NCBI GenBank assembly: GCA_963971425.1
Contig: OZ020517.1
Location: 15,838,904 to 15,902,903, forward strand
Length of the DNA stretch: 64,000 bases
Origin: Bryoerythrophyllum caledonicum
Taxonomy: Eukaryota; Streptophyta; Bryopsida; Pottiales; Pottiaceae
Reading direction: 5' to 3'
Both the position numbers and the translations under genes were made by a program. The notes beneath the pieces are model-generated. The model searched no databases. It saw only the letters and a list, made by a program, of their open reading frames with translations, and was not told the DNA's origin. This document shows positions 19,303 through 63,232 of this stretch, piece by piece. Position 1 is the first letter of the stretch. Every line of letters begins with the position of its first letter.

Positions 19303-22300
19303 GTCGGGGGCCAGCCGACAAAGAAAGAAGAGGAATCAGAATCACCGAATATTTTTATAGAAGAAATCTCATGATTAAAAAAGGTGAGTAAAAAAACTCC
19401 AATGATCAAACAATTTATTCAAAAAATGGGATGAAAAATAAGGTGATTATTTGGAAATTAAACCAAAAATATGAAGCAATGAGAGGTGGTCAACATGAAA
19501 ACGAAGAACGTGGTTTGTCCTACGAGTACAGACGTCGGCCAGCAGCCGACGGACAACAGAGACTTTAGTGGACTACAAACAAAGAAGGCTCCGGGTAGGC
19601 AGCTCGCAAAAATAGTAGCAGATGGCAGAATGATCTCCTGAAAAATTAGGGAAACACTAAGAGAGTAAAGGCCCAAGTAAGAAGGGCAAACAGATGATTT
19701 CCAAACTCGAAATAAAAAAAGGTTGTCGGCTGGCAGCCGACAAGAAGAACTTCAATGAAAAAGAATGAAATCCTGCCAACAGAATGTTGTGAAAAAAACA
19801 TCCATCAATTAAGTCCGGCAAAGTGGGTAAAGCAATACAAGTGATCAATCTGAAGACAGAAACAAAGAAGAGGAAGTGAGTTTCATAAAAAGATGACTGC
19901 CAATTGGCAGCACGTAAAATATTGAACATCCATAAACGACCATCAAGAGAATACATTGATAACAAAATTCTATTATACACACCATTCTACAAAGTACAAC
20001 ATCAAAACAGAAAGGTAAAAACAAGCTTGACTAAAATGAAGTACATCAAGGATAAGATCCGAATAGAGCACGATATTTTAGTCAAAATGAATGTTACATT
20101 TGGAGGTGCCCCATAGATGGCAGCAGTCCGGAAAATCGATTAGAGAAAAGCAACTACAGGGGACTATTTACAAGCTGAACTACACTTCACATCTACCAGT
20201 TCTTGCGCCATGCAGGAGCGTACATATTGGAGTCCATGTCCGAACCGGTGTCGCATCCGGTTTCAAATGGATTACACAAAAAGCTTGAAAACGAATCGCT
20301 GTCAAAGTTTCCGGTAGCCCACAAGTCCACCTCGTCCGATCCATTGCAGTGGAGGTCATCTTCATCAGAGCATCCCAACTGTGCATCGACAAACTGACCG
20401 CCATCGTCGTCTGAATCGACATCGTGGTTGGACTCCTCTTCGTCATCTTCCTCGTTCCAAATCTCCTCATGAATGTCACTCAACGAAACAGTGCTATCCA
20501 CAGAGTTTTCAGACACTATACTATTCTGAGACTCTGCCTCCCTGGCAACTCTGGCCTCATTTGCCTCCCTCTCCTCCCTTTCCTCTCTCGCTCTCCTGAC
20601 AAGCGCCATACTACGAGTCTCAACCATGTCGTCGGCTGGAAATAGAATCAGACTAAGAAAAGAAGAAATCACTCCAACCTGTAGCAAATAAAAACGAAGA
20701 TACACAAAAAGAACTGAACACAATGAGATACTTCACATACACTGAATCTGTGAATTTATAATTCACTTGCCGCAAATTGCACACCAACAATAATTACTCA
20801 TGTACAACTACCCATCTACTCGTCATTATGATACCGAGCAACACACGTGCCACAAATTTCAGTCTTTCCTTCACACGCACGAAGACTTTGACCACAAAAA
20901 ATGGATCGAACTGCATATGCAAAATACAGAGGCTGTCGGTTGGCAGCCGACAAGAATAACACCAACTACTCAGACTAAAATCATGTCAGATGAGTTACTT
21001 GAAAAATGTATCAATGGCCGAAAGATCAGCAGATACTACTGTTCCAGGCATCAATCAAATTAATATATGATGAACGAATTACATTGCAGAGAACATCAAT
21101 CCGTCGGCTGGCAGCCGACCAAGAAAATGCTATCATTCGCTACTGCCATGAACAACGACGCCACCTGCCTCCAAACAAGCCATTGCAGTGCTCGCTGCTT
21201 CAGGTGGGATACGGTGGGTCTTTGGAGGCCCACGCTTATTATGAGACGGGTAGCGATGCGAGAAGAGAACGATACTGCAGTTCTGAACATCTGGATCCCT
21301 TTACTCACGCTCCCACCGCCTATTCCAGCACTCCTTCCCGATGATCTTCTTAGAATCTTTCTTGGTCGTGAGTGGAACCTACCATTCAACCTTAAAGTTT
21401 CCGTAGAAATCCCCAGGACTGTGGTTGATACACTCCAGTACCCGGCCCATCCACATAGGAAGGTAATGCCCAGTGCAAGGTCGGCAGAGTACAAAATCAC
21501 CAAGAAGAACATCACGAAATGGATTGAAGGATAATTTCGGACGGCTCATCTCGGGGCCGCACAAAGGGTAAGCGTCGGGTTCATCTTCTGGTGTGACATC
21601 CAAGCCGGAAATAATTGCATCCGGTTGTGACGCTGCGCGAGCATGATCACGCATCCAGTCCGATTTTGGCCATAATCCTTCTTGCAGACAGTCGGGGTTT
21701 GGAGGGAGACGACCAGATATTAGTTGTAAAAGACGCTCCCAATAATCAATGAAAGGCTCCATATCCGCGGCATTTCGTTTGTCTCGAGCCATGCCCGTCC
21801 TCCAGAACTCAATATACTTTGCAATACCGTTCTTGATAAAGGACTGCTTCTCGTTGTTTCCAGTGGCTCTTGCAACCTCCTTCTCCTTGTTTTGCTTCGA
21901 TTCGTTGACATGAACGTCACCCCAAAGCGGCTTGAAGGGTACTGGTTTTGGATCACCAATTGGAAGGTTGGGATTCCCGAATTGATCCGCCGTCCACATC
22001 TTCACAGGCTTATCTGAATGCAATATACAAAAAAGTTAGACAAAAACAAGAAAGCAATGAAATGGAAGGAAAGAAGGACAAAAGAAGCTCAAAGGTAAAA
22101 TCCGTCGGCTGGTAGCCAACAAATAAGTAACAAGAAAATCGGCAGAAAATGAATGCAAACAGAACAATGACAAAAACAAATGAGCCTCACCCGGAGGGAG
22201 CCATGATGAATCCGTCGCACTTCTCTTGTATCTCATGACCGGCCATCCCGCATCTTCACCTTCCTCTTCAACGTAAAATTTGAAAAGGTGCATCTCACCA

Positions 22301-24207
22301 AGGCCAACAAGCTTATTCTTGCCTTCGTGATGGTAATCAGCAATGTAACTTTTGAAATCAGCAACCTCTTGAACAAGTTCAGGAATAAAGGCTACTATCT
22401 TCTGAGAGTCTATGAAAGATTTCATGAGGTCAGCTCAGTAGTAAATGTTTTTCCGTTTGATGAATTTTGAAAGGTAACTAAAATGCGCGTCAATGTCCTC
22501 ATGAGTGTGGCCGACAATCAAGAATCCCACAGTCACTTCTTTAAAAATTCGTCTGGTTGTGAGAAGCGAAGAGAAGGCCATGACGAACTTGTTCTTGTTA
22601 TCCTTTGCAGAGTTATCAAGTTGGAGATACAGCTTCCGAGGAAGCTTAACTTCTGGTTGAGCGAGCGAAGAAACAGGAAGGGGATCGCCCCTAGCTTCTA
22701 GAATCGACGAACTGTCCATTACATGAAATAGGAATCTGTCCAAGACCTGCGGTCGCCTTCGTAATCCACTGCATTCTTGGAATGGCCGTCTTTGAAGTGT
22801 CCATCTTGTTGTGAATAATGCAGAGAAACTCAGACGGGTAATTAATTGACTGAGATGTCCATCCGGAGTACACATTACCGCAAGCACTTTGGTAGTTGAG
22901 ATGCCTCGCCCGATCATCATGTAGTGCTTGCCATTCGTCAGACCCGCGAGGATATTTGGCTAGAAACTCAACCAGATAGTCACACTCGGTACATCTCGAA
23001 AAGTTGCTACCAACGGCCTTCACTTCAACGTTCCGAAAAAACTTCCGTTTCAATCGACTAACAGCAGATTGCGAAATCGGCTTGACACAGCAATCAAAGT
23101 TGACCTGGAATCAAAAGAGATAGCGATCAAGACTAATGAGGTAGAATTACTGAGATGCAAAAATAGACATGCATCGGCTGCTAGCCGACACAATGGGTTA
23201 TATGAGCAAATCAAATGTGCAAGTAGTAATAATGTTGAACCATACCAGGTTGGACATGTCACGGAGATGATTCCAGTCCATCGCAGCAGGAAGAACCATC
23301 AGAGATGCAACCCTCTTGTTGCCGATGACTCGAAATTCATTTGGCATGTGGTCTGCATTATCATTGATGATTCTGGAAATGGTCCTACGAGCCTGAACAG
23401 TCTGAGACCTGGGGTGCAGAATTCCCGTATTTCCATGACCACCATTTACGCGTCCATTCAATGAATCCGGTTTATACTTGTAGTATGCAGACTTGGAGAC
23501 GCCATGAATGCAAAACCACGCAACTTCGCAAACGTCGACACCATGCAGAGTTATGAAGGGTTTCCAGAAGCCAGGAACATCGTGGAGCTGGCCTTGAACA
23601 ACGTACGCAGTTTCACGCCGTTGTTCAAAGCTTGAGGAGTAGAACTGCTGGCGGATTTTACAAGTGTCCGCCCAAAGAAAAATCTGACAGCATCGTCTCG
23701 AACAACACTTTTTCGAACTAACAAGCTGAGAAGAACCTTTGGGCTGGAGGCGTCGAAACTTGGTAACAGAAACATCGCACTTCTGCTTAAGCTTCCGTTT
23801 CATACCTCTGTATGGATCCTTGGCCACCCCCTCAAGCCCGTCATCTTTACATGTGGCTTGATTGTGCTCAGAGCAGTAAATGAGGCAATCTCACAGCAGC
23901 GGACCACCTTCAAAGCGCGTGTGCGAAATCTTCCAGCGCAGCGTCGTCATCTGAAGATCCTCATGCTCAGAAACAAAGAGTACGCCAACGTCAGTGTCAC
24001 CCAAATTGTCCGCATCACATGCTTCATGCGGGAGACAAACTTGAATCATCGCCCGCCCAACTAAAGCGAGATTATTGTTGAGCAAATGGCAGTACTTGTT
24101 CCTCCTTTGTGGTCGATCCGGATACTGAAATTGATCACAATTGACCCCTGAAGGGAAGGTTGCTTCAATCGGTGGTTGATCAGTTGAACGTCGGCTGCCA
24201 GCCGACG
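19303..24207. repeat. B-type palindromes, left cluster
   Basis: Copies of GTCGGCTGGCAGCCGAC and variants occur at about 19303, 19533, 19723, 20625 (half), 20934, 21102, 22102, 23171 and 24189. Centres and flanks vary (GGG, CCAGC, TGCTAG) but symmetry is mostly kept. Several lie in introns of the transposase gene. The copy at 24189 is inside a coding exon and reads PSAGSRR on the minus strand. Confidence 0.85.
20193..20640 (-). CDS. Acidic, charged C-terminal exon or small ORF of element B
   Basis: Minus-strand frame starts MVETRSMALVRR, runs through an Arg/Glu-rich helix (about residues 8-30) and ends in an acidic region (WNEEDDEEESNHDVDSDDD). It is preceded by a half palindrome (TCCAGCCGACGAC). 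It may be the last exon of the transposase-like gene or a separate protein; no domain is recognised. The downstream stretch 19303-20190 holds only palindromes and repeats. Confidence 0.4.
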
Positions 24208-25033
24208 GAACGTCCTCATATCGCTCTCGAGATGCTTCGGAGTGGCTTCCTGAATCCGCATTGAATCCTGTGGACACTTGAAAAGTGTTGTCATCATAGA
24301 TCATGTCCCCACGATCGTCGTCATCCGAAGCGCCTGACATCTCACTCACTGAATATTCATCAGATGAGGAGTATCCAGTGTCGTCACCGACACGCATGGG
24401 ACAAACTCGATAGCCACTCCAGAGAACAAGGTTATCCACAGTGTCACCAAGCGTACTCACCTCAGGGAGCTCGCAGTATGCGGTATGAGTGAGGAACTTA
24501 ATATTTATTGTCTGGACTCAGACAACGAGAAAGAAGTTGTGAGGAATTAGGAACCCTTCCCACGATCCCTTTGGTGAGCACTTGTCGATAACTCCAACGC
24601 CTGCACAACAGTTGTGACCCATGACATCAACAAGGAGGGCAACCTTCATTCCGTCATGAAGGTTCAGAAACGACAGAACTGGTTTGATATCGTCAACGGG
24701 TTGCAATATGGATTCCGGTGGATCCTCAATGAGTTCGTCGATGATAGCAAATGGACAAAGGTCAGCCGCATCCCAATCGATTGACCGGCCAGAGCATTCG
24801 CGAAGCATGGATAGTCCATCAATTGGGAACGGAATGGGCATTTCCATCGAATCGGAAACATCGATTACCTTGACACAAATAATCCATGGATCCTTCAGAA
24901 TGATTTTTTGAACAACTGCGCGACCAGCATAATAGAGACCTGAGTGAGTTAGGGCGACTTGAACACCTTTATATGGCTTCCATCGACCTGATTTTCCGTT
25001 CTTCATAAACGATAAAATGGGTTCGCAGTCCAT
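21096..25033 (-). pseudogene. Element B DDE-type transposase-like gene (DUF7869-like), decayed
   Basis: The start codon is the ATG at 25033-25031, inside the CATG duplicated by element A. Order of pieces: paired small-barrel-like repeats (YKGVQVALTHSGLYYAGRAV), an acidic linker, a Cys-rich stretch with LIYCSEHNQATC, HGVDVCEVAWFCIHGVS, HGNTG.., then C-terminal FSRCTECDY, IIHNKMDTSKTA, LQLDNSAKDNKNKF and GHTHEDIDAHF, which would be the DDE-like acidic residues. Two introns, 23105-23248 and about 22020-22195, each contain a palindrome. Neither has a counterpart in element A's intronless homologue. One in-frame stop near 23910 and one frame shift near 22700 mark decay. The last coding part reaches about 21160. 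Confidence 0.75.
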
Positions 25034-25034
25034 G

Positions 25035-25063
25035 AACACCATATTCGTTATAATGGGAGATTT
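25035..25063 (+). repeat. Element A left TIR
   Basis: Starts AACACCATATTCGTTATA and matches the reverse complement of 43930-43958 at 28 of 29 bases. It abuts the CATG target duplication. Confidence 0.85.
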
Positions 25064-25326
25064 CCATGATTTTGAAGATATATGATCTTTAAAGTATCAA
25101 TATATATAGACAATTGTAGGTGCAAAGCATATCAACAATGCACCAAGAATACTATATACCATTACATGGATGGACCGAATTAGCCGAATGTCCCAAAAAA
25201 TGGTAACGCTAAAAGAAGCATGTACCATTATTCCAAGCTTTATTTAAAACTTCATGAAAAAAAATCACAAACAACACTCATTCACCCCGAGGCAAAACAC
25301 AATCGTCCTATCACTAATCAAATGGT

Positions 25327-26182
25327 CTACGGAGTTCCACCATAAGCTTCTATACGCGTCTTCAAAAAAGCCCTCTGACGTTGCCTTGTCCATGTTGCGC
25401 CATTCTCTTGCATTAATGGACTCTCTAGAAGACGCTGCAAACCGCGCCTACGCACCTCGTCACTGTTTGATTTGGGCAGCGAGTGCCGGCGGGCGGGGGA
25501 AGGAGAGCATTTGCCTCTAGTAGCATCCCCAGACAAAGTTCGAGGACGGAGATATTTACCGAATGGTCCCTGCACAATAGGCGCCACACACAATCCAAAG
25601 AAATACACTTTAGGTTGAATACCGCTACACAACACAGATGAAAATTTAATCATTGAGATCCATCCTAGCGCACATTAGGTCGGATGGAGCTAAAATGCAG
25701 AAGGAAAGATCCACAGAGCACATTTAACCCCCAACAAAAAAACAAGCTTAAATGAACCAAAACTACATTAGCGCAATGTAGCTCAACAACAAACCAAAAT
25801 TGTCTAGGCCAAAACATCGCAATAGTGCAATAAATTGGAGGTCATCATAACACGCACCGCAAGCGAGCGTTGGGAAGTACCATCCCTTAAACCATCGTAG
25901 AGAATACGCTTTGCTGGAGTACAATTATCCGGATTTAAAGGTGGGGACCCAGGAACTAAACGAGGCCACTGCGGCGAAGGCGAGTTGTTCCTATCATGAA
26001 TTGGCTCCCGCGCAATAGGGCTTTCAACAACTCCGTCGTCCACTGCCATGGTCGAATAATCCATGGTTGATTGCGCAGGTGCAGCAGAGTGCAACAAAAG
26101 CCCTTTACTCCGAAGAGAAAGGACGAACTCCTCTGGCCCTAGCAAGGAATCCACGGACGCCCGACAGTCACAGTCCTGTAGA
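25327..26182 (-). CDS. Candidate 3' exons of element A (unknown)
   Basis: Two minus-strand frames follow good acceptors. From about 26182 one reads DCDCRASVDSLLGPEEF and runs to 25804. From about 25573 another reads GPFGKYLRPRTLSGDATRG and ends at a stop at 25327 after a basic stretch. They could be alternative last exons of the FCP1-like gene, joined from a donor near 26570, or remnants of another gene. No domain is recognised. Confidence 0.35.
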
Positions 26183-26519
26183 AATTTCAACCACAGCGAC
26201 ACTCACATACCTTAGAACAATGGATGAAAATTCCAATCATTCAAAATAGCATGACATTCCATCAGCAGTAGATATCCTATTCCCACAACAAACAAAGCGG
26301 TGAAACATCTCAGTTTCATTTATAAAAAAATATATAGACAGAAAATGGTCCAACAAAATTTACAACATCGAGCTGCAGTCAATCGATACAGTTTAGCTCT
26401 ATGCGACCTAAAGTGTAAAAGGAATCTAAGCGTTCCCAACGGCATTAAGAGCGGAGATTTTGAAACGCTTGGATTGCGTTCCAGATACTCGCAGACTGAC
26501 CACACGTCTTCTGATCATT

Positions 26520-27239
26520 TTAAAACATCTCCCGGCTAGAGGGATGTTCGGCCCGGTACTGCGCTAGACCACCCGGAAACTGATGAAGGTCAGAGAGATA
26601 TGGCAGCAATTCCTCCAACAATACAGAGTCGTCTCTCGCGCCAACATGTTTGTGCGACCATGATGGAAGAAGAAGGACGTTCTCCGGCAAATTGAGCATG
26701 TGCTTAATCGGGCTGTCGTCAATGACAAGCGTATTTGCCGGAGTATACTCACGACCCAACCTATTGAAGAGATGGCTCGATAAGGTCTTCAAGAAGATGT
26801 CCTTCTGAGTGCCAGATTCCTTCATGTAGAATGTTCTGCTACCGACTCTATGCTCGGGAACCCTATCGCAACTCTCCTGACCAAAGATCCTGAGAGGGTA
26901 CGAAGAACTATGCTGAAAAAGATAATTACATATCTGACGCGTTGTAGATTCCATCATCGAACTCCAGATCGTGATGGTGGCAATCTCAGACAACTTTGTA
27001 AGGAACTCAGCACAACCAGGGCGCACTCGAACTAGTTTAGGGCCTACTTCGGCCGGCAGCAAAGCCGAGTGAATGGACGGGATAGAGTCCCTGGATCCTC
27101 TGGCCTGCCACGACGGCTCACACGTGCATAGAATCCCATTGAGGTCCAGCACAATGTTCAACCACCTGCCCTCGATATCTGAATGGACTCTAGGTATTTC
27201 GTCTAGATTATTGGCATCACTTATTGATGCCTCGCCGAC
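26520..27239 (-). CDS. FCP1/NIF-like HAD pseudo-phosphatase exon of element A
   Basis: The exon begins after an acceptor at 27240-27242 in phase 0. It continues from exon 27647-27385 (phase 1 in, phase 0 out), an acidic segment with a duplicated PVIEEVVQ. The domain has the FCP1/SCP order: LNIVLDLNGILC (motif I, normally DLDxTL), VRPGCAEFLTKLSEIATITIWSS (motif II), RTFYMKE, and LVIDDSPIKHMLNLPENVLLLPSW (the DD motif kept). The second catalytic Asp is Asn and Thr is Ile, so phosphatase activity is doubtful and a binding role is more likely. It is the last clear exon of the ParB-like gene. Family by motif; function inferred. Confidence 0.75.
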   Translation of the reverse strand, partial: VGEASISDANNLDEIPRVHSDIEGRWLNIVLDLNGILCTCEPSWQARGSRDSIPSIHSALLPAEVGPKLVRVRPGCAEFLTKLSEIATITIWSSMMESTTRQICNYLFQHSSSYPLRIFGQESCDRVPEHRVGSRTFYMKESGTQKDIFLKTLSSHLFNRLGREYTPANTLVIDDSPIKHMLNLPENVLLLPSWSHKHVGARDDSVLLEELLPYLSDLHQFPGGLAQYRAEHPSSREMF

Positions 27240-27384
27240 CTGGTTCGCAAATGCCAGGAGAACGACCAATATTACTACAGATTCATTAACAACGACGATT
27301 CAACAATACGTAGAACGAAAGAGATAAATGGGGGGGAGGAGTGATGGGGGAATGAGTGGAGTTCGAAAAGAGTTAGAAGAATAC

Positions 27385-28815
27385 CTCGAGAACTTCATCG
27401 TCCTGCAGCATTTCGTCTCGGGCACCCATCGATCCCAACGAACCCTGCATGCTGTCAAGGGGCCCGGAGTGCCCGACATCCATTTGGGGGCATGGTTCTA
27501 GGACAAGAAGAGGTGGCTCAGAATCATGATTGATCTCGTCTACGAGCACGGCTGAAACTTGGACGACCTCTTCTATGACTGGGACTGCAGTTTGGACGAC
27601 CTCTTCTATGACTGGTTGAGAAATCGCGTCATCACCGAAACTTAGATCTGGAAAAATTCAACAACTTCACCCTATCAGCGGATGGGCACAGAGGACACGG
27701 ATACAAGTCACAGTGGTTAGATGTGAAGCAGTTTAGCTTGAGTCGAGCTGAAGTGCTCGCCGTGCACTGTAATATGAACAAAAAAAATACTGGAGTACAA
27801 AATTGGACATTTACAAAATGTTCTGCCTCTATACACTCGCAACTACGTTACACTAACCTGACGATGACCTGGGGACATCTGCGATAGATTCGTCCCGATC
27901 GGGTGACTTCGGAGGGGAAGAGGGGCGGGCCGACGCGGAAGGGAGAACAGGAAGCAATTGAGCCCCACTGGAGACGGGGGAGGTAACCGACGGATATGGA
28001 AGCTGCAAATCGCGAGACGGACTCGCAGACCCGCCGTCCGGTGATGCGGGAGGCTGGGGGATTGCAGCAATAACTACGGGCGGTGATGTGGCGGAAGTAG
28101 GCAAATTAGCCGACATGAATCTCTGCATCATGAGCATCATCTCAGCATGCCTCTGATCTTGGTCTCTCTTCATTTCATCGTCACGCCTCCGCTGCAGATC
28201 CCTGAGCTCCTCGTCGCGCTCCGCAAGTCGCTGCTCCATCAACCTCATCCGGGTGGCCTCCTCTTCGAGCTTCTTCTCAAGGGAGATCAACCTGCTGTCA
28301 TCCTGAGTGCTGCTCGCGATAGACAAAGGAGAGCGCGTGCTGGCGCTAGCAACCTTCCTCTTCTTGGCCGCGGGACGAGCGGTTGAAGCACCCAAGGTGG
28401 GAGCTGAATGAGGCCTGTCGGAAATCTCCAACGAATCCAACTCCGGGAAGTCGAGTCGTTGTCGCGAGGAAGCGATTGTGTCTCCTGCTTCAGATTGAGA
28501 TGCACTCTGAAACTCAGGCGGAGTAGCGTCAACGAAGTCGTCCTGGGACTCATTATCCGGAGTGACGGTGCTCGAGATCGGGCACGCAACCACAGCGCTC
28601 GGCTCCGCATCTTCCTCCTCATCGACGAGGTCAATAATGGCTTTCCCCTTCCCCTTTCCAACGGCATCTCCAAGCTCGGGAAAGATCTCCAAGTTGACGT
28701 GATACGCAGAAATATCGAAATCGGCCCGATCCAACGTCAAGCCGACCTCAAAGGCGTCGTCGAGATCCTGCTCATTGGTGTCATGAGAAATGCAGAATGC
28801 TTCCAGGTCGAGCAT
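27385..28815 (-). CDS. Coiled-coil/low-complexity exons of element A ParB-like gene
   Basis: Exon 28815-27858 follows acceptor TGTGCAG and ends with donor GTTAGTG. Exon 27647-27385 follows. The first is acidic (DLVDEEEDAEPS), then basic (RPAAKKRKVASAST, a nuclear localisation-like signal), then a heptad-rich coiled coil (residues about 190-245; LEKKLEEEATRMRLMEQRL), then a Pro/Ser-rich tail. The phase-1 junction between the two exons agrees (G + AT gives Asp). Element B has a matching donor and basic tail at 58344. Confidence 0.65.
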
Positions 28816-29086
28816 CTGCACACCAATGGATTGAACAATATACAATTTAGGTCGAGTCGAGCTAAACTCAATACAAACAATTGCTGGTACTAAAACTTGG
28901 CTATTATAACTTCAAATGATACGAACGAAGTTAATGACATCCATAAAATCATACAAGAAAAATCCGACACTTTAGGTCGAGTCGAGCTAAAGTTTCACCA
29001 AACAGCATAGGCATGACCTCATTGAAACTATGCACGAGTCGGAAAGGGAATAAACAGTTTAGCTCGACTCGAGCTAAACTGCAGGG

Positions 29087-32000: not shown

Positions 32001-32121
32001 ACTTCAGTGTCATCGATGGGTCCTTGAGCTCCCAGCAGTCCAAGTGGTTGTTGTCGTCTCCATCGTCATCGTCAAGGTCGACAGGCTTTGGCTGGAAGAA
32101 GTGCTGCAGCTGCGACACCAT
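29087..32121 (-). pseudogene. Element A ParB/sulfiredoxin-like gene (main exons)
   Basis: The exon begins at acceptor 32138-32140; the first ATG is at 32121. It runs to the donor at 30690. Intron 30464-30690 holds two palindromes, and exon 2 is 30463 to about 29087. The N-terminal part is unassigned, with a basic Ser-rich linker (SPVKKRSAAKKPETSSRKK). Then comes a ParB-like segment: MKIELDVMRLHNAP, a helix, FYIING.HSVAASKEM (the GxHRxxA-type box) and FRTWQCYIVW. Exon 2 has VKLGIIDFRNIPGFSG and LPAWLFICGNEQSHLQVTAFA, an alpha/beta region of unknown role. Two in-frame TAG codons, each one C-to-T step from CAG, lie near 31090 and 31006; otherwise the frame is open. It could bind DNA like ParB; this is inference. 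Confidence 0.65.
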
Positions 32122-33478: not shown

Positions 33479-33659
33479 TTCAATGAATAGCGTATTTATC
33501 GCAGATTGTACAGATTAGTCATTCGTTATATGATACTGAAGGCGTAGGGTTTAGGGCTCTTGGGTGAGAGTATGGATTTTACCTTTCAGCCATTGCTTAT
33601 GAACCTTAATCCCAGACAAATTCTGCTGGAACTAGACTTCCTGCAACAACAATTACAAA

Positions 33660-43958: not shown

Positions 43959-43962
43959 CATG

Positions 43963-53386: not shown

Positions 53387-53442
53387 GCTCGCAATCCTAG
53401 GCTCGCAGCTCGCGGCTCGCAAAATTACGCACGCAAAATAGC

Positions 53443-54540
53443 TTGGTCCTTTAAGACAACCTCGTGAAAATTTCGAACCTCCTGAACGTTGATGTTGCCG
53501 AGAAGAAAGCGGAAGAGACCTACGTTCCCCAGTTTCGTAGAATGAGGGAGAAGTGGATTGAGCTTGGTCGCGTTGACAAGCTTCAAGACCATGCTGCCTG
53601 GAAGGTACTTTTAGTGCTCACTTGTTTGTTCATGCTAATCGTGTTGTGTGGCTTCAGTGTATCTGACCGTCGGCTGGCAGCCGACGGCCTTAGATGTATT
53701 GGAACCTGACTCTATTCATCGTGATTGTTGCAGGATTTTTGCGAGAATCACCTCACTGTGAATATGAGTAAGGCTAAAGACGTGGAGATCTAAAAGCTAC
53801 CCCTTGTTTTCGTTCCTGATGATCTCTACAACAAGTGGCAAGTGGTTTTCACGGCTGGGCAGATGGATCAATTAATTGGGGAGAACGGTCAACCTCCTCT
53901 TCAGATTCCACGAATGCCGCAGCGGGACATCACGCACACGGACCTTTCGTACCTCGTCAACCTGCGTGATGAGGACTCCATGAAGCTGGCTGAGGCGATT
54001 CTGGATAAGAAGGTGTATATTATGGTGAACGCAGGAAAGGAGAAGGGGGCTATTGGTGTGTCGATGAAGTCGTGGGTAAAGGATGTAAAGATGAACTACA
54101 TCATCAAGAACGAATTGATGCTGAAGTACCGCGATTATCCACTAAAGAAGCCTAGAGAGTCCGCATATGTCCGATGGGCGTATGAGCAGTTTACGATGTT
54201 TGCCGCTGAGAAGGGTATCAACGATGAAACCCTTGATAATATCCGACGCGAATTGGAGCAGTCTGATGCTGGCTCAACATTCTTGAAGGGGAGGAACAAC
54301 GGGATTACTCCAACGACCAACGAGACGCCTCATGAAGAAGTACGCCGTTCTTTGTAATGAGGATCTGGCTGATGAGTTTGCTATTCGCTTTGATGTTCGT
54401 GTTGCGAAGGGGCTTGTCGAACTAGTGAAGAAAATCGACGACAAAGGAGACGTTGTCATGTAGAGAGGGGAGCGCTTTGAGAATTCACGGGGAATTTGGC
54501 TGCAACCGGAATAGATGGCAGGAGAGTCCAGTCGTGTCTT
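53443..54540 (+). pseudogene. Element B ParB-like gene, middle exons
   Basis: The frame resumes after element C as NLVKISNLLNVDVAEKKAEE and ends at 53604. Intron 53605-53733 holds a full palindrome at 53668. The next exon reads DFCENHLTVNMSKAKDVEI and, from 53842, MDQLIGENGQPPLQIPRMPQ to EEVRRSL (stop 54357). Just before that stop the frame shifts to KKYAVLCNEDLADEFAIRFD, RVAKGLVELVKKIDDKG, RGERFENSRGIWLQPE. The intron is at the same place and phase as A's 30464-30690 intron. Stops and frame breaks mark decay. Confidence 0.65.
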
Positions 54541-56744
54541 CAATTCTTCAAATCTTCATATCTTCATCTCTTCGACTCTTCAAACAGCTCTCCGTTGGCC
54601 TATCCTGTGGTGGCTCTAAACGGGTTAAGGGTAAAGGTAAGGTGATAAGAACCCACGGCCTCGAACGGGTAAAACGGGACGGCCAGACTACAAGCTGAAA
54701 CCGTCCGAAAGATTGGCTCCTAAAATTCAAATCCACGGTGACCAGCAATCGCGCCTCACCGGTGGGAACAACATAAATACGACCGTGTGGGTGATCAATC
54801 CCACTTCGCCGCAACAAAATTTACGAAGCAGAATTGAAAAGAACTAGCCTCCAAATCCGGCTGGGAATAACAAAAAAAAGACAACGAGCCTCCAAATCCT
54901 GCTAGGAATAACAAGCCACAAGCCACAACACACAAGTCTTCATGTCTTCTTACCTTCAAGTCTTCAAGTCTTCAAGTGTTCAAAAACACTAAGAAACTCA
55001 AAAGAAGTGTTCAAAAACACAATGGAAAAATTTCCATCAAGGCTGTAACCTTCAAACAAGTGCCACAGATGACTCATAACTCCAACTACTAAGTTTAATA
55101 ACTTTCTGGAAAGCTAACACAAATAACTAACACTCCTCCAAATTTCAAATCATTCTAAACTACTGTCCGAAAGTTATGTGAGTTCAAAGTTCTGCCCTTC
55201 TAGAAATTCAATCGCTCATAACTTCTTCTTCAAAGCTCCAAATTTTAATTGTAATAGCTTTTTGGAGAGCTATAACAATGGTGCACACACCTTTCAAATC
55301 TCAAACCATTCTAAACTACTGTCCATAAATTATGGCTTGTTGAAACCTCTGCCCTCTCAATGGATGGCCTCGGGTCTTTACAATTTCAAACCTTCATAAC
55401 TTTTGCAATTCAACTCTAATCAACTTGAATGATAAGTTTATGCAAAGCTAAACAAAAGTTCTATAACTCCTGAAATTTTCAAAGAAAGACGCAAAAACTA
55501 CAAATTTTGGTGGCCGCCCGAATCTCTGCTCCTCTTCGTTGGGTGGCAGCAGACCCTCCTCCACTCACACGCTTGTAACTTTTTGCCCACAACTCCAAAT
55601 CAAGCGAAATTAATCTCTCTGGAAGCGTATCTCAAAGAGAAAGAAACCCTCAAAATTTCATTGAAAATAATTGTTTACAACCAGAGTTCTCGCCCATCAA
55701 ACTCTCGGCTCTCTACACACACACACCCTTTTCTCTCAAAGCACACTAACTCTTTTTTCCCCCAAAACCCGACTAGGAGGGAGAGAGAAGATGCCTACCT
55801 ACCCTCTAGACCCCTAAGGTGGATAAGATCAGCCCATGTGCATATCACATGGGCCTCAAGACACCCATTGGCTCTAGGAAAACTCAAAAGATAAGTATCT
55901 ACTTATCTTAAAAGGCCAACAAACCTTTAGAGTTCTAGCTAGGAGGTCAACTACTTTCTATCTACCATCTTTTAACTTCTAACATTCAAATAAAACACAA
56001 AACACAAAAATTTAGTACAAAGCTTCAATCCAAAACAAGTAGAGGTAAAAACTAAAGTCAAAGAACAGTGCTACTCCATCTGCAAGAACTTGAGGATGCG
56101 CTTGATAGTACTTGCGATGTAATCTGCAAGTTGAGTCTTTGTCAAACGTTTCACTGGCCCTTCTAACCAACGATGGTGGCCAGTGCTTAGCTCGATTGGC
56201 CTAGGTATACAGAAATAATGGTCTTCGTTCAGGCCCTCGAAACTGCCTTCAAATGTCACTTCACGGGTGCCCGGTTCAACACATCCAGTTTGAAGTAAGA
56301 TTACTAAAACACGCGCGTCCTTTTGGAGATTACCATGCCAACGCTGCTCAACACGAGGCTGCTTTAGCGGACGAGAAGACCCAGCTTCATCTTGCGGGTG
56401 AAATGGCAATGGTGTAGAAATCGCCGGCTGGGATGGTTGAATTGGCAACTGAGACAAGGAAAGCTGTAAATCTACCTCCGGTTCAAACTCTAGATCTTGT
56501 GACTCCATAAAAACCCTCCAGTTCGACATATTAGTTCGAACTTCAAATCCAAACACAAACTCTAAGAATGTAAAGGAATACTTCAAATTGGTGAATATTA
56601 TTTACGGCTTTCGCCTTTTAAACAATTCCATGAGCAATAAGCGTCACCTTAAAGCTACTGGAAGCGTCACCAATAAGTTTCGTCCTCCTAATCAAAGATC
56701 TTTCCAAAAAGGTAAACAAGTAAATATTTTATACACTGAAAATA
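54541..56744. other. Probable insert or long intron in B, one minus-strand ORF
   Basis: Sequence style changes: repeated CTTCAAGTCTTC runs and AACTTTCTGGAAAGCTAAC / CATTCTAAACTACTGTCC blocks that recur. I see no clear terminal repeats. The only sizeable frame is 56071-56586 on the minus strand. The right end meets an acceptor (TTTACATCAG) at about 56756. Confidence 0.4.
56071..56586 (-). CDS. Unrecognised 171-codon ORF
   Basis: Reads FMESQDLEFEPEVDLQLSLS, a Pro/Ser-rich spacer, then a compact region EQRWHGNLQKDARVLVILLQ .. PIELSTGHHRWLEGPVKRLT ending in a helix (YIASTIKRILKFLQ). I do not recognise the family. It lies opposite the host element's genes within the insert-like stretch. Confidence 0.35.
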   Translation of the reverse strand: MKYSFTFLEFVFGFEVRTNMSNWRVFMESQDLEFEPEVDLQLSLSQLPIQPSQPAISTPLPFHPQDEAGSSRPLKQPRVEQRWHGNLQKDARVLVILLQTGCVEPGTREVTFEGSFEGLNEDHYFCIPRPIELSTGHHRWLEGPVKRLTKTQLADYIASTIKRILKFLQME

Positions 56745-56756
56745 TTTACATCAGGA

Positions 56757-58344
56757 CAACGTGCAACTTGAGAAGGGAGCTCGTGAGATATTCGTTGTAT
56801 TTGGATTCGACGAAGCCGGGGAATCGATCTTTATTGGCAGAGACGGGCTCAAAGTAGTTGTGCAGAGGGTGCTACGAGTGAGTGATGATGAACAGTCTGA
56901 GATTTTCGCTCCTACAATTCTTATTATCGACGACAACTCCAGTTTCCAAATCGAGTCGGAATGTCGCAGTTCGACAAGAGTATGTGCCGTCCACACAATT
57001 CGCTACCTCCCTGACAGTAGCCGGAAGTTCAAGGTGTCGGCCATGCACAACAGACCTCTGGCTAACGTCGGAATCCTCTACAACAAACCGAGTGATGAGC
57101 GTGAAAGATTCAGCCAGTTCAAGAAGGTGACGGGACTGACGAAGCCTCTTAATCATGTCTATGACGACGCTGCTTCGCCCTTGATCGAGAGCTGGTGTGG
57201 AGATGTGTGCAATCCATGCATGGGTTTGCTCACCGCAATATTGAATCCCACCTTAGCGGTGAAGGAATCAAACCTGACTGTCTTCAATGCCTGGGGTGGT
57301 GGGAATGTCACAACCTTGGCCTTGGTTGGTTTCCTTAACTCTTGTCGTACTTGCTCTTTTTTTTTGTCCTGCATTTACCGATTCATGTCATTGCATCTCG
57401 TCGGCTGGCAGCCAATAGTTTTTTGCAGCGAGTTTCTGACTTATCTTCTCGTATCTTTTCTCAGCGGGCGAAAGCAACTGTGATTGATTTTGTGCGCGAG
57501 GAAGCTGACATTGCTATCGCGAAGGAGCGCGTTAAGAACATGTCGTTTCTCCCGCAGCCGTCTGGTGTTCCTAATCGAATCACCTGGCCTCAGCCGTCGG
57601 ATTCGACATTTGGGGTTACCTAGCTTGGAGAGAATTCTGCGCCACCGCCAAAGGTTGTGGAAGACGATGAATTTTCTCGTGTTGCTCGGAAGGTTGTGGA
57701 TGAGTTTGTGGTTCAATCTACCCAAGCATCCATGTCACGGAATTCGTTGGATGTGTATGATTTATCGGACGACCACACTTCTGATCGTGATGTCGGGTTA
57801 AATGAAGAGAAGACCAGTCTTGACCATCTGATTACCCATATCGTCGAAGGACCTCAGTCAACCATGCCAGTTGTGTTGCCTACAATAGTGGAAGAGGCGA
57901 TGCCTTCCGGGTCTGTGGTCATCAATTTGGCCGAGCAACCGCAAGTCGAAATAGTTGTCCGGACTGGCCTCACATCTGTAGCGGGTACTAATGCAAAGAC
58001 TGTCCATCCTCCGAATCTCGCAAAGGACCTTGCTGCCCGAAGATCGATTACTCGAGATTCTCGAGTTGTCCCGCCGGGACCTAAGGATGAAGTTCCCGTA
58101 ATTTCAACAGGTACTGACGTCCTTCTTGGAAGCCCTAAAGCAAAGAAGGCAAAGACTTCCAACAAAATTTCAGGGAAGAAGCGGGCGACGTCTCCATCGG
58201 CAAAGACGAAGGGTTCTGCTGCAAAGCGCGGTTCAAGAAGCAATTCTTCTTCCAGACCGAACACCCCAATGACCCCCGATGGCGAAGATCTCCCAAACGA
58301 GTCCATGTCTCCTGTCGTGGATCGCGCAGGCAATCCATCTGGAG
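56757..58344 (+). pseudogene. Element B ParB-like gene, 3' exons (alpha/beta region and basic tail)
   Basis: After acceptor TTTACATCAG the frame reads VQLEKGAREIFVVFGFDEAG, IDDNSSFQIESECRSS, and KESNLTVFNAWGGGNVTTLA, matching A's LPAWLFICGNEQSHLQVTAF region. An intron from about 57330 to 57428 holds a palindrome (57399). The next exon starts RVSDLSSRIFSQRAKATVID. It has one in-frame TAG and ends in a basic tail (KAKKAKTSNKISGKKRATSP) with donor GTTAGTG at 58345, the same donor sequence as in A. Confidence 0.6.
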
Positions 58345-58580
58345 GTTAGTGTTACAATTAGCTTACTGTAGGTTCAGAATTTAGTGACCTAGCGTGCAAC
58401 TAATTTTCTGAAATATTTATAAATCCATCATGATTCTGTGCTGGAGTACACTGCTAATTTTATGTTTGATTTTCTGAATTATTCTCTAACCTTGTCTAAT
58501 CTTCTGAGTCGGTTTATCGGCTGGCAGCCGACCAGGGATCTAATGTCCTTTAATGGTCTTTCTTTAAATCAACTTATCAG

Positions 58581-59498
58581 AGGACTAGTACTCCTGTACT
58601 TGTTGCTTCTGATGCAGTGGAGCAGGTTGGTGCAGATCGAGAATCCGAAGCATTTGAGCACATGGTTCAGGTGGGTTTGACACCCCTTAAAGATTACTTC
58701 CTTGTACTTGAATTGAATGGTTTGGTTCTCACGCATGGCGCTGACCGTGTTACAAAGTTCCGGCCTCACACCCAATAATTTCTCAAGTATTGTGTTGATA
58801 ATTTTACTGTCGTGATTTGGAGTTCTGAAAGTCCGGCTGGAGTGGGGACTCTTCTTAACGACCTGCAAGATCAGTTCAAATTCATTCTTCAAAGAATCAA
58901 ACATGTCTTCGATAATACCCTTTGCGACGTAGCTCGGTATTCTATCAATGACAAGAAGTTCTACCTCAAGAGGCTATCAACGTTATTTCTTAGTTATGGG
59001 GATTTGATAGGGAAAGGAGCCAATAGCGCCAACACCCTCTTGATTGACGTTCATCCGTACTCGAACGTCAAGAATTCTCCATAAAACGCCATTCATCCCA
59101 TACCCTACACTCTCACTTCAACTGAGACTGCCAAACAGAGTAGGCAAGCCCTCTCAGTGATAACTTCCTTTCCGAGTGCGATGAAGGAAGTGGGCTGGAC
59201 TGTACCCTTGTACACCTCAACTGTGGACCACCTTATCTTGGTGAAGAAGTTCGCCTTGCCCTTTCAAAGTGACAAGCCTCGTCGTCCTCGTCCTCAAGTT
59301 GCGAATCCGGAGTTGAATGATGGGCTCTCAGTGAGTGTGGACACGGTCTTGCCTGATGCTGCCGTCGTCGAGTCTGATGTGCCTCTCGGCCGTAGGGTGA
59401 CCTTTCTTGAACCTAAGCCTGTCGACCCTTATAAGACTCGGCTGGTAGCCGTCCCGGGGAACCCTCGATTGCTTCCTGGAGAATCCGAGTGGAAGTAG
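58581..59498 (+). pseudogene. FCP1/NIF-like unit 1 of element B
   Basis: Starts after acceptor ACTTATCAG, in phase 0. The HAD-like order is DYFLVLELNGLVLTHG (motif I, first Asp now Glu), FLKYCVDNFTVVIWSSES (motif II), LYLKRLSTLFLS-type linker (FYLKRLSTLF), and ANTLLIDVHPYSNVKNSP (DD-region, one Asp left). There is a long C-terminal tail to TAG 59498. Two in-frame stops are visible. Catalytic residues are lost, so it is a pseudo-phosphatase even if expressed. Confidence 0.65.
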
Positions 59499-59766
59499 TT
59501 TGTTTGGTCCTTTCCAAGCGAGAAGCGTCCAAGGTCACTTCCAAGTAGACGTTAGATTAATCCGTCGGCTACCAGCCGACGCTTAAATTCATTACATTTC
59601 TTTTCATGACATTCGTCATGACTATGGAATTATATTTTTTGTTCGCACATTGATATTCTCTTTGTGTGAATGTTTACCCCTAATAAACATCGATTGTAAT
59701 TATTTCAACTTCCTATGCACTTGATGGGTTCTTAATTAGTGCATCGTCATCCATTCATTTCTTCAG

Positions 59767-60480
59767 GTTGACTCTGGAGTTGGCGACGCAAGTGAGTGGT
59801 CTTTATCGCTCCGCGCCGGACCATCCGAGAAGGTCAATACGTACTTCCTTGTCTAATCCTTGAACGGTCTCTTAATGGCGCAAGGTGTTGGAGCCGACAG
59901 GAAATGACATACCATCTTTCGGCCGATGCTGAAAGAGTTTCTCGAGTTCTGTGTTTCCAACTTCACTATGGCAGTTTGGAGTGACCAATCCAGCTCTTTT
60001 CTGAAATTACAAATGATAGCTCTCGAGGGACAGTGTGGCATCGTTAGAGAAATTAGACATCGTTTCCACAACAGTTTCTGCGACACAGCGACGACATCGT
60101 TCAACGGTCGGACTCTACATATTCGAAGGCTTTCTACTCTGTTTTTGCATCCGTCCGGCCTGTTAGGCACTAGAGCGAATAGCCTAAACACTCTTCTTCT
60201 CGACTGCTGTCGTTTTGCTAATGTCCGGAACAGTCCCCTCAATGTCACGCATCCCCTGACGTTCGATCCGACTTCAAAGGAGACCGTGAAGAATGTCGTT
60301 CTTCCTACTGTTGTTCTGTTCCTTTCCGGTTTGGTTTCATCGGGATTGCCTGTTCCTGAGTATGTTCGTGAGAATATCGATTCGACCGGATATTCTCGAC
60401 TCTGGCCCGATGACCCAAAGTGGGCGGAATACGTCGAAGCTTATCCCAGCTCGATGCGTCTAAGTATTTCTTCCTCTTAG
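59767..60480 (+). pseudogene. FCP1/NIF-like unit 2 of element B
   Basis: Begins in phase 0 after TTCTTCAG, with a palindrome in the gap before it (59563). NTYFLV.SLNGLLMAQG is motif I with the Asp missing, FLEFCVSNFTMAVWSDQS is motif II, and SLNTLLLDCCRFANVRNSP the late motif. It ends with YPSSMRLSISSS and stop. Two early in-frame stops. Confidence 0.6.
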
Positions 60481-60648
60481 GATTGTAGCGTCGGCTGGCA
60501 GCCAACGCCCTCGAATGTTCATTTTGTCAGACCTTTTTTGACTTGCTGTAAATACAATTTTTTTATAATAATACTCTTTTGTTTTTTGAACAATTATTTG
60601 TGATTAGTGCGTCACTGAATCTATGCATGTTTGCTTTATTGACTTCAG

Positions 60649-61848
60649 ATGCAAAATTTATTCCTTGAAGTCGGAGTTCTTGGGGATATTTCGCACCAAT
60701 TTGCCGTTGCGACTGATCCAGGAGACGTTGACTTGACGGATATCTCCCCGCGCTTCAGCGGCTTTCACTCACTGTTGGGAGATTACGAGAGACTGGAGCA
60801 TCAAGAATTACTTGTTGCCGCCAGCGGTCTTGGATTTCATGTCGATTCTGGCCAATGTTCACTTCATCGTGTCGGGGAGCCTGCAGTTGTAATCAAACTT
60901 GTTGTCGTAGTTGAGATCGTGTCACCGATGCATCCTGGGAATGTCGCTGTCGCTTCCGGCTCCACCCGCTGTCACATCGAGGTGGCAGACACCAACGATT
61001 TAGTTTCGGATGGTGCTTGTCCTATCGGTGTCAATGTCGTCGGCTCCCAGCCGACACCTTCGTCTGCTTCAGTTCCAACTGCCGACCTCAGCTCCAATTT
61101 GGTTCACAGGAACATTCAGGTGGGTCCTTCAAGCTACTACCTCGTCCTTGAACTAAGGGGGCTTCTCTTCGCCGAAAGTTTTCTTTGTCGTGGCAATGCT
61201 AAGAGGAAGAGCTTTTATCAGAAATCTAGGCCTGGGCTTCGAGAGTTCCTTGCTTTCTTCGAGTCGTCCTTTTCATTGGCCTTTTGGTCAACTGATAATT
61301 CCAGAGAGATCCATCGACACATGGATTACTTGTTCGATGTTTTCCCCGACTTGCGAAAGAACACAAAAGTGTTGGGCACTATCTATTGTGATTCCTCTGC
61401 GGCCAAGAATCCGTCGACTTCATCTGCGCCGCTGCTGAAGAGGTTGGCCCGAATGTTTTCTGATAGACGCTTTTTAATCGGGCCTGATGCAAATGAGCAG
61501 AACACGCTTCTTGTTGATCCCTTTCCTCTCCAGAATATCCTCAATAGCCCCTGTAATGTTGTTCATCCTTCTCTATTTAAGTATAATATTCCGGAGATCT
61601 CAGTTTCCGGGATGCAGCCTTATCTATTGAGTGCGTTAGTTCCCTTTCTCTCGGGACTTTTGAAGTCTCGAGTCAATGTTCAGGAGTACTACCATGCAAA
61701 TTGGGAATTTGGAACTTCTCGACTTTACCCTGGGTCATTTCAGCATCAAAAGTACAGGGAGGTCATCTATCCCCAGGCCTTGGGTTTCGACGCTCCATAT
61801 TGTCCCTATGAAGTGGAGTCGAAGCTATTAATAATCTACTTGAACTAA
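60649..61848 (+). CDS. FCP1/NIF-like unit 3 of element B
   Basis: The longest uninterrupted unit (399 residues) starts right after acceptor GACTTCAG, in phase 0. The first 150 residues are unassigned and include a B-type palindrome in frame (VVGSQPTPSSA). The HAD-like part is SSYYLVLELRGLLFAES, GLREFLAFFESSFSLAFWST, KRLARMFSDRRFLIGPDANE and QNTLLVDPFPLQNILNSP. Motif I lacks both Asp. The C-terminus (LYPGSFQHQKYREV..) resembles that of unit 2. Probably a terminal exon rather than an independent gene. Confidence 0.6.
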   Translation: MQNLFLEVGVLGDISHQFAVATDPGDVDLTDISPRFSGFHSLLGDYERLEHQELLVAASGLGFHVDSGQCSLHRVGEPAVVIKLVVVVEIVSPMHPGNVAVASGSTRCHIEVADTNDLVSDGACPIGVNVVGSQPTPSSASVPTADLSSNLVHRNIQVGPSSYYLVLELRGLLFAESFLCRGNAKRKSFYQKSRPGLREFLAFFESSFSLAFWSTDNSREIHRHMDYLFDVFPDLRKNTKVLGTIYCDSSAAKNPSTSSAPLLKRLARMFSDRRFLIGPDANEQNTLLVDPFPLQNILNSPCNVVHPSLFKYNIPEISVSGMQPYLLSALVPFLSGLLKSRVNVQEYYHANWEFGTSRLYPGSFQHQKYREVIYPQALGFDAPYCPYEVESKLLIIYLN

Positions 61849-62145
61849 ATATCCATCTATTCTCGAATGGGCTTTTTCGAGTTTCTATTCCTCTTTATTG
61901 CTACTGACAATCAGAAACTGATCCTTCCTTTCCTTGTAATTTTTGAATTTTTGTGATATTATGATATATTTTCTAATTCCAGCTTTCCTATGTGTATGTA
62001 TTGCCTTTATCACATGTCTGTGCTTCATCTCTGATGATGGTCATGTGCGTTGTTATGCCCCGTCGGCTGGCAGGCGACGGTACAGTGTTTTCATCCTTCC
62101 TTAATATTCGGCATCATGACGATTGTCTTCTTTTTGATTTTTCAG

Positions 62146-62802
62146 GGGTCATCCTTTTATTTCAAATGCTTATATGGAACCCCTTCACCGTATCGAAAGT
62201 GTGTTGTCCTCTGTGTCAATGGGCTCCTTTGCTTTGTAAAACCGCATGTGCCAACTTCTGGTTCTTGCACTCGTGAGAATATAGTTCGCCGGCCGGGCTT
62301 GAAAAAACTTTTTGATATGTTGCTCCCTTGCTTTAACGTCGCGCTTTGGTCAACGTTGCCGATGGAGGAGTTACAACTTGTCTTGCGGCATATTCTTCCG
62401 GTTGGTGTTATGGATAGGCTGTCATTTGTCTATAGCAGACGTGACTTAGCGCAGAGCATAAATTTTCCTTAGAGTTACAAAACGATGTCTATTCTTTCTA
62501 AGAAGAATCATTCGCGTTCTGTCTGCCTGCCTCATCAAGTTCTGTTCGTGGATGTGAACCCAAGGTCTCTCAGGAAAAACCTCGACAATATTTGTTATAT
62601 TCCCTGGCCGTTTCAGGGTCATTTGAGCCTTCGAGACAATGACCATGTTATTCCTAACGTGGTGACCGACATCCTTCCCTTCATCCATCCGCTCCACAAA
62701 TTTTCAAGCGTGCCTGAATATTTGGAGCAAGCACATCGACCTGATCAGTCTCATTGGGCGGTTTCAAAGGCGCGTGAGTGTGGGCGCACAGTTGTCCGAT
62801 AG
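62146..62802 (+). pseudogene. FCP1/NIF-like unit 4 of element B
   Basis: Begins in phase 0 after TTTTTCAG, with a palindrome upstream (62060) and another downstream (62833). It shows YRKCVVLCVNGLLCFVKP (motif I degenerate), GLKKLFDMLLPCFNVALWST (motif II), HQVLFVDVNPRSLRKNLDNI and a C-terminal tail. One stop at about 62470 splits it. Confidence 0.55.
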
Positions 62803-63232
62803 GACGAAATCGAATGGTACTAGGTCTTCTCCTTCGGCTGCCAGTCGATGGTCTTCAAATTAGTTTTTGTCCGTGATTTGAAGGATGCATTTTGTAAAGT
62901 TCATGAAAGTAAACATTTGTATTGTATAATTTGATTTTGAGGATTCATGTACGTGTCATTAGTTTCCGTTCAACTTTATTATAGGATGGTTTCTTCTAGG
63001 AAGTTGTATTTATTTGTTCTCGAGATGTTCACTTTTTGGTTGGCTACCAGCCGACACTGTAATTTGTTCTGATCAATAAACGTCTCTTTTTTGCAACTGG
63101 TATATGTTATTTTGGAACATCAGATTTGTCGATTGAGTTTTTCTTGCTTTATTACTTTTGGCCTCTGCTGCCCGCTGACTGAGTTTTTTCTCAGTGACTT
63201 GTTTTTGACTCGTTTTTATTTCTGGACTTTGT

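Follow-up and report, generated by a model that had tools for sequence, protein, structure and literature searches.

Three nested transposons in a moss genome each carry their own family of short palindromes

Why would three nested transposons each carry many copies of a short palindrome that the other two lack? This question is raised by a stretch of 64,000 nucleotides from the moss Bryoerythrophyllum caledonicum (GCA_963971425.1, contig OZ020517.1, positions 15,838,904 to 15,902,903 of the forward strand; hereafter the window, numbered from its first letter). Here, an element that we call B (18902–63264, target duplications included) holds two others, A (25031–43962) and C (46894–53442). A measures 18.9 kb, B has 18.9 kb of its own DNA, and C is 6.5 kb long. 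An original prediction held that each element has its own palindrome family, changing at the element boundaries, and that the palindromes are either element-specific recognition sites or self-spreading sequences.

One palindrome family per element

The elements are delimited by terminal inverted repeats (TIRs) and, for A and B, by target duplications:

18902–18905: TATG target duplication left of B, exact
18906–18933, + strand: left TIR of B, identical to its right TIR at 28 of 28 positions
25031–25034: CATG target duplication left of A, exact
25035–25063, + strand: left TIR of A, identical to its right TIR at 28 of 29 positions
43930–43958, − strand: right TIR of A
43959–43962: CATG target duplication right of A, exact
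46894–46950, + strand: left TIR of C, imperfect, ~58 bp
53385–53442, − strand: right TIR of C, imperfect, ~58 bp
63233–63260, − strand: right TIR of B
63261–63264: TATG target duplication right of B, exact

After the target duplication A and B start with AAC; C starts with GCTATTTTGCG, and its target duplication is at most 2 bp (TT). When the flanks are joined across the empty A site, one frame is open with one CATG or with none, so the frame does not decide on the CATG duplication.

Matches to the A-type (TTTAGCTCGASTCGAGCTAAA), B-type (GTCGGCTGSCAGCCGAC) and C-type (GTGCCGAYRTCGGCAC) palindromes were counted per compartment at fixed thresholds of at most 5, 4 and 3 mismatches, respectively. 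Each type was confined to its own element: 34 of 34 A-type copies lie in A, 24 of 24 B-type copies in B's own DNA and 15 of 15 C-type copies in C. None of the three types was found in 19.6 kb of flank, the sole host DNA covered; a similar density in host DNA far from the elements had been named beforehand as speaking against the prediction. At up to 6 mismatches there are 36 A-type matches, 35 in A and one in the flank (6352, with 6 mismatches, at which 0.9 are expected). At exactly 4 mismatches the C-type has six further matches (one in C, two in A, three in B), against 2.4 expected by chance. In 10 order-1 Markov shuffles, the A-type gave no match up to 4 mismatches, the B-type none up to 3, and the C-type 0.2 per window at 3.

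The change of family coincides with the TIRs of A, as had been claimed. On the left, the last B-type copy (24190) is followed by the first A-type copy at 25674; on the right, the last A-type copy (43624, 5 mismatches) is followed by a B-type copy at 43986, 24 bp past the A duplication. The predicted span of 19303–63056 opens with the first B-type copy and closes with another that lies close to the right end of B, and the element itself reaches further on both sides. A consensus-free palindrome scan compared with 20 shuffles gave an excess in all three elements: 25 palindromes in A (shuffle mean 1.9, maximum 7), 7 in B (1.8, maximum 3) and 7 in C (0.7, maximum 2), while the flanks gave 5 (3.5, maximum 8).

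Placement and anatomy of the sites

The placement of the copies was examined relative to the main genes of A and B:

26523–27280, − strand: NIF/FCP1-like domain of A, reading DLNG at the expected DxDx position
27850–32140, − strand: left gene module of A, open frames E1 to E4 (approximate exons)
40163–42991, + strand: DUF7869 protein of A, probable transposase (PF25273, E 2.6e-43), one open frame
21130–25030, − strand: DUF7869 gene of B, with an in-frame stop; its upstream part is cut off by A
56743–62810, + strand: gene of B with NIF-like domains in tandem, of which three reach the Pfam cut-off and one falls short of it

The palindromes are distributed as follows:

19303–19741: B-type, at 19303, 19534 and 19725
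20935–21119: B-type, at 20935 and 21103
22104–22120: B-type, probable intron of B's DUF7869 gene
23173–23189: B-type, probable intron, best GT..AG candidate 23105–23245
24190–24206: B-type, exception, within an open frame
25674–27752: A-type, at 25674, 26392 and 27732
28846–29078: A-type, at 28846, 28971 and 29058, probable intron E3/E4
30545–30662: A-type, at 30545 and 30642, probable intron E2/E3
32212–33107: A-type, at 32212, 32535, 32893, 33034 and 33087
33189–33478: A-type 52-bp tandem array, at 33191, 33243, 33295, 33347, 33399 and 33453
35428–37256: A-type variant pairs, 35428/35497 and 37167/37236
39492–39848: A-type 47-bp tandem array, upstream of A's DUF7869 gene
39983–40003: A-type, ahead of the probable start codon (40163)
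43294–43644: A-type, at 43294, 43366 and 43624
43986–45681: B-type, at 43986, 45351, 45635 and 45665
49298–51286: C-type, 15 at up to 3 and 16 at up to 4 mismatches, most of them in a 64-bp tandem array that starts at 49722
53669–53685: B-type, gap between open frames
55538–58532: B-type, at 55538, 57400 and 58516 (the last in GT..AG candidate 58345–58617)
59437–60506: B-type, at 59437 (in the coding mask), 59564 and 60490
61039–61055: B-type, exception, within an open frame bearing a NIF-like domain
62062–63179: B-type, at 62062, 62833, 63039 and 63163

The copies largely avoid coding sequence. Approximate coding masks were drawn by hand on the basis of the open frames and cover 40% of A and 56% of B. 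By these masks, none of the 34 A-type copies is coding (binomial P 3e-8), nor is any of the 21 that remain without array copies (P 2e-5). Three of the 24 B-type copies fall in the mask (P 1e-5): at 24190 and 61039 the open frame continues through the copy, and that at 59437 is a 3-mismatch copy. Moreover, all eight gaps of 150–310 bp between open frames of B hold exactly one copy (P ~0.001, post hoc), whereas a shorter gap of 57 bp is empty and a longer one of 2.3 kb has a single copy. All three A gaps of 200–310 bp are occupied, with one copy in that of 209 bp, three in that of 309 bp and two in that of 269 bp; an 89-bp gap is empty. GT–AG intron candidates were looked for at 14 junctions. 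Good candidates, each with a palindrome, were found at 58345–58617 and 23105–23245 in B and at 27540–27857 in A. The view of one palindrome per intron, as drawn from these predicted junctions, is approximate, since one of the 14 junctions lacks a candidate and three weakly scored candidates have no palindrome (near 62401–62616 in B, 27105–27384 and 30847–31432 in A). The B copies run through all 18.9 kb and are spaced with a coefficient of variation of 0.68, compared to 0.94 for random placement (P 0.036).

The A-type is a 27–31-bp dyad around TTTAGCTCGA-S-TCGAGCTAAA, the B-type a 17-bp dyad, GTCGGCTG-S-CAGCCGAC, and the C-type measures 16 bp. Information content is near zero just beyond the 17-bp B site (24 copies) and the 27-bp A site (23 copies, with a single one retained from each array). 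It does not drop at the palindrome edge in C, because most C copies sit in one 64-bp tandem array. Exact A half-sites occur 30 times inside palindromes and never alone. For B, 21 exact half-sites are inside palindromes and two are alone (0.3 expected); at up to one mismatch, 13 are alone against 10.1 expected. Lone half-sites are thus near background, and it is the whole dyad that forms the unit.

Two likenesses of the motifs should be mentioned. A GCCGAC/GTCGGC hexamer underlies the B-type and C-type in opposite polarity, and occurs 35 times in B, 11 times in C, 7 times in A and 4 times in the flanks. KorB, a relative of ParB, has an operator whose arms are identical to the outer arms of the A-type, TTTAGC...GCTAAA. 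This operator, from IncP-1 plasmids, is given as TTTAGC(C/G)GCTAAA in PMC2680271. The likeness is possibly a coincidence, because it is broken by the D-type sites described below.

Gene content and relatives of the elements

Judged by their sequences, A and B are distant relatives, each with a DUF7869 protein and NIF/FCP1-like domains. PF25273 scores exceed the curated cut-off of 26 bits in A (148 bits), B (105.5 bits) and a relative, C71 (128.6 bits), and the A and B proteins align in three blocks with 45%, 30% and 23% identity. The gene blocks point away from each other in both elements. The DUF7869 protein is a probable transposase, given three Asp-containing blocks conserved between A and B (MDHSKT/MDTSKT, QMDN/QLDN and HTHDDID/HTHEDID) together with the TIR and duplication structure; a literature search found no mention of DUF7869, PF25273 or IPR057191. 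The catalytic motif of the NIF/FCP1 family is DxDx (DxD). In B the NIF-like domains read ELNG, SLNG or ELRG at this place, and therefore look like pseudophosphatases. In B's right gene (58600–62810), the second and third NIF-like domains are 44% and 34% identical to the first. C holds decayed BTB/POZ fragments at 47828–48058 (E 1e-8) and 48704–48853 (E 0.0016, just under the cut-off), which suggests a non-autonomous, gene-capturing element; a scan of five C frames revealed no recognisable transposase. Three proteins had no match in PHROGs.

A scan of genome contigs with A's DUF7869 core found one 4327-bp contig, CADCWO010000071.1 (C71), filed under a cyanobacterial metagenome-assembled genome (MAG). 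L001, L009 and L010 are eukaryote-like transposon contigs filed under uncultured Synechococcales AVDCRST_MAG81. When protein P0001 was compared with 386 cyanobacterial genomes, it had a match solely in AVDCRST_MAG81. These contigs are apparently eukaryotic contamination of a public cyanobacterial genome, because the 385 other genomes have no match and two further MAG contigs hold interrupted A-like genes. IMG/VR gave no relatives with P0001, its core, A5 or A6, nor with the A-type and B TIR DNA patterns.

The DUF7869 protein of C71 is 76–77% identical to that of A, and the DNA is 75% identical over the 2.8-kb open reading frame; the flanks barely align (5' score 272 against at most 220, 3' score 354 against at most 334 in 8 shuffles). 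All of its A-type palindromes are in these flanks, at 34, 114 and 489 with at most one mismatch and at 3573, 3750, 3821 and 4071 with 4–5 mismatches, three more at 6 mismatches being left out of this count. C71 has no C-type match at up to 4 mismatches and no B-type match at up to 5.

Two other contigs of the MAG, C243 and C269, encode A's left module with 32–60% identity by exon, and the NIF domain of C243 is 44% identical. They carry 8 copies each of a D-form palindrome, TTCAGCTCGASTCGAGCTGAA / WTCAGCTCGASTCGAGCTGAW (at most 3 mismatches, outer base A or T), with one more match each at 6 mismatches left out. Compared to the A-form, the left arm has changed from T to C and the right arm from A to G at the matching place in 16 of 16 copies, a count that is not independent of the D-form consensus with which the copies were found. 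Seven of the eight copies in C243 lie in gaps matching A's E2/E3, E3/E4 and E4/NIF, and one lies outside; in C269, two are in E2/E3 and E3/E4, three are found between E4 and the end of the contig, and three precede the first exon. With hand-drawn coding spans, no copy is coding in C71 (0/7), C243 (0/8) or C269 (0/8). The two forms share no contig and have no exact hybrid: at up to one mismatch, A-form and D-form counts are 18 and 0 in the window, 3 and 0 in C71, 0 and 6 in C243, and 0 and 5 in C269. In the whole 4.8-Mb MAG, the A consensus at up to 3 mismatches is listed at 14 places (3 in C71, 11 in C243 and C269) and its reversed pattern at none; the B-type appears at 3 mismatches only, with 12 matches, while its reversed control has 7. 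A consensus-free scan found a single dominant family per contig, which accounts for 2/2 palindromes of C71, 7/9 of C243 (one double) and 6/9 of C269.

The change of motif thus tracks protein divergence: the motif is the same at 76–77% identity (DUF7869), differs by one symmetric base pair at 32–60% (left module) and is unrelated at 23–45% (DUF7869, A compared with B), although the three steps compare different proteins and not one and the same.

The left-module protein is conserved, without a confident family, at 4400–5793 in L009, 3000–4420 in L010 and 29105–30487 in the window. An INGQHSVAASK stretch in the preceding exon looked ParB-like by eye, which Pfam did not confirm, giving no ParB match. 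In L009, a DNA methyltransferase match (N6_N4_Mtase, PF01555; E 0.033) is below the cut-off and unconfirmed.

Other features were observed in and around the nest. A carries a telomere-like, CCCTAAA-rich tandem repeat (38724–38859), and 37601–37731 inside A resembles 63266–63395 just right of B (73%). Left of B lies a hairpin with 88-bp arms (17805–18029), and the flanks share an inverted repeat pair (8287–8494 / 63349–63545, 74%). The left flank also has a direct duplication with protein kinase genes (1–3379 / 10449–13793, 93.5% identical); just downstream of the second kinase copy, the open frame 13468–14874 has an HSP70-type match (PF00012, E 2e-5). Taken together, introns, the matches to kinase and BTB and the telomere-like repeats make the DNA look plant-like.

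What the palindromes may do

The closest working likeness is with the VANC targets of the Arabidopsis Mutator-like elements VANDAL21 and VANDAL6. According to PMC5735166 and PMC10398659, these targets are short, family-specific and different in related elements, occur in many copies in non-coding DNA including introns, and are tandem-expanded; VANC, once bound, strips DNA methylation from the elements of its own family. Their motifs are non-palindromic, with 9 bases for VANC21, arrayed in one orientation, and 8 bases for VANC6, whereas the sites here are dyads of 16–31 bp. The original prediction was correct that the palindromes are unlike ordinary subterminal motifs, but a precedent for motifs in non-coding DNA including introns exists in VANDAL (PMC5735166). 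This analogy is one of working and not of relatedness. Among the Pfam matches of the scanned frames, from which some short frames were left out, there is no Mutator-type transposase or VANC domain, and DUF7869 is found instead. Mutator elements make target duplications of 9–11 bp, compared to 4 bp in A and B.

CACTA elements (En/Spm, Tgm) also carry a repeated palindromic motif that differs among related elements and for which binding by a protein of the element has been proposed (PMC2613891). The Tgmt* repeats described there lie in end stretches of 159 and 732 bp; here the sites occur throughout. CACTA TIRs come with a 3-bp duplication, whereas the present elements have other TIRs, duplications of 4 bp (A, B) or at most 2 bp (C), and DUF7869. 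CACTA ends were rejected, the sole loose CACTA-like match (63196) not being at an element end. Sola2 shares the 4-bp duplication found in A and B, but those that PMC3627910 describes for Sola2 are AT-rich; PMC9033089 lists a Sola1 element from the moss Physcomitrella.

On balance, and with slightly more confidence than doubt, we lean towards reading the palindromes as sites of a dimeric, element-encoded protein that would mark the whole element, with an anti-silencing effect like that of VANC. Each element would carry many copies of one dyad site in its introns, spacers and flanks, as the address of its element family. A protein bound to these many sites would mark its own element and no other and keep it open, by anti-silencing or activation, and may also aid transposition. 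A dimeric reader in co-evolution with its sites would yield the series seen here, with sites that are the same, then symmetrically shifted, then unrelated as the proteins diverge. The reader is probably encoded by the element, because the A, D and B sites differ, and the left-module product is a candidate for it, without a recognised DNA-binding domain. The reader protein, its identity and its anti-silencing effect are what we infer. The prediction of element-specific recognition sites gained support from the one-to-one specificity, the avoidance of coding sequence, the sharp edges of the sites in A and B, the near-background number of lone half-sites, the return of the motif in a related copy and the symmetric change of both arms in other relatives.

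Several observations weigh against this reading. The Pfam matches of the scanned element proteins (DUF7869, NIF and weak matches) include no DNA-binding domain; NCBIfam (four proteins), solved-structure profile searches (A5, A6) and phmmer of P0001 gave no match; and AlphaFold models are of low confidence (mean pLDDT 35 for the DUF7869 core, from a 5-row alignment, and 34 for an exon of A's left module alone). C is of a different kind, with no transposase recognised in it, and its reader would therefore have to come from elsewhere. A and B are each represented by a single copy, so that selection on the sites is presumed. The A copy at 27732 is a near-hybrid, with one outer arm A-form, the other D-form, and one further mismatch, and in 13 copies of A, G.U is slightly more frequent on the sense strand (11 against 5). 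Moreover, the arms of 21 isolated A copies co-vary at loosely specified positions: ext1 is paired in 14 copies against 7.6 in shuffles (p 0.002), arm2 in 15 against 9.3 (p 0.0008), and ext4 and ext5 give p ~0.02, values that are uncorrected for the positions tested and include some copies related by duplication. A plain protein site does not predict this. The co-variation suggests that whole palindromes are copied or corrected as well, and the internal duplications of A show one way for this to happen; function and copying need not exclude each other. No such co-variation was found in B.

Copying could also be the whole story. Hairpin-prone sequence without function might be propagated by template switching, gene conversion or tandem duplication, each lineage amplifying whichever palindrome it began with. 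We regard this as unlikely, yet as the strongest of the alternatives. Palindromes do sit in tandem arrays with units of 47 and 52 bp (A) and 64 bp (C), and segmental duplications in A carry or adjoin them (37164–37467 / 43291–43599, 35420–35522 / 37159–37261 and 32312–32478 / 32636–32801). The paired arm changes in A point the same way, as perhaps do those in the D-form (arm10 and ext2, p ~0.04, uncorrected over 18 positions), two 29-bp copies of CATATTCAGCTCGAGTCGAGCTGAATATG in one intron of L009, and some relic-like A matches (6 at 7 mismatches against 1.5 expected). However, B copies are dispersed without a common flank, and B relics are few (at 5 mismatches 4 matches, with 1.4 expected, and at 6 mismatches 6, with 7.4 expected). 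A and C71 share their motif although their flanks barely align, and every intron-size gap of B holds one copy. Insertion with own target duplications was not supported: 3 of 24 B copies are flanked by direct repeats of at least 4 bp (1.0 expected; the mean has a permutation P of 0.32), and 0 of 21 isolated A copies have flanking repeats (0.5 expected, P 0.51). Self-spreading, the other part of the prediction, may thus have taken place: A-type sites were multiplied by tandem and segmental duplication, and a relative has two copies in one intron, but the copies lack flanking target duplications.

The sites might instead serve transposition in cis, as binding sites of the transposase or an accessory protein that have spilled into the interior. 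CACTA subterminal repeats likewise vary from one related element to another, and some can be arranged as palindromes (Tgmt*, PMC2613891). The outermost B copies lie inside the TIRs, ~370 bp from the left one and, with 4 mismatches, 54 bp from the right one. We give this explanation a low probability, as the copies are not strongly clustered towards the element ends. Those of B occur throughout, and the densest arrays of A, at 33.2 and 39.5 kb, are 4–8 kb from its ends. A role at the RNA level, with hairpins in the pre-mRNA affecting splicing or stability or acting as a source of small RNAs, seems very improbable. Introns are hot spots, the perfect 27–31-bp inverted repeats of the A-type could fold, and the G.U excess in A would fit, but B has no such bias (11 sense, 10 antisense), which speaks against an RNA hairpin. 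Copies also occur in spacers and past gene ends, and the window has no Rfam match at gathering thresholds.

Returning to the reading as sites of an element-encoded dimer, the elements may belong to an undescribed transposon family. A wider proposal, which we put forward tentatively and hold to be possible rather than probable, is an undescribed superfamily of ~19-kb eukaryotic transposons, with a 4-bp YATG duplication, a DUF7869 transposase, NIF-like pseudophosphatase genes and element-wide dyad tags. A homodimer encoded by the element would read these tags and co-evolve with them. Titles and abstract openings that we found on palindromic or anti-silencing transposon motifs report no element-wide palindrome families. 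If the reading holds, element-wide, sequence-specific self-recognition, which to our knowledge is otherwise known only from VANC in Arabidopsis, would have arisen, by way of palindromes, in transposons of an unrelated kind. Any change in the reader would force an identical base change on the two arms of every site, giving mutually blind lineages. Because the site is a dyad, this co-evolution would leave a readable trace, so that the splitting of a transposon into lineages that do not cross-react could be followed directly in the sequence.

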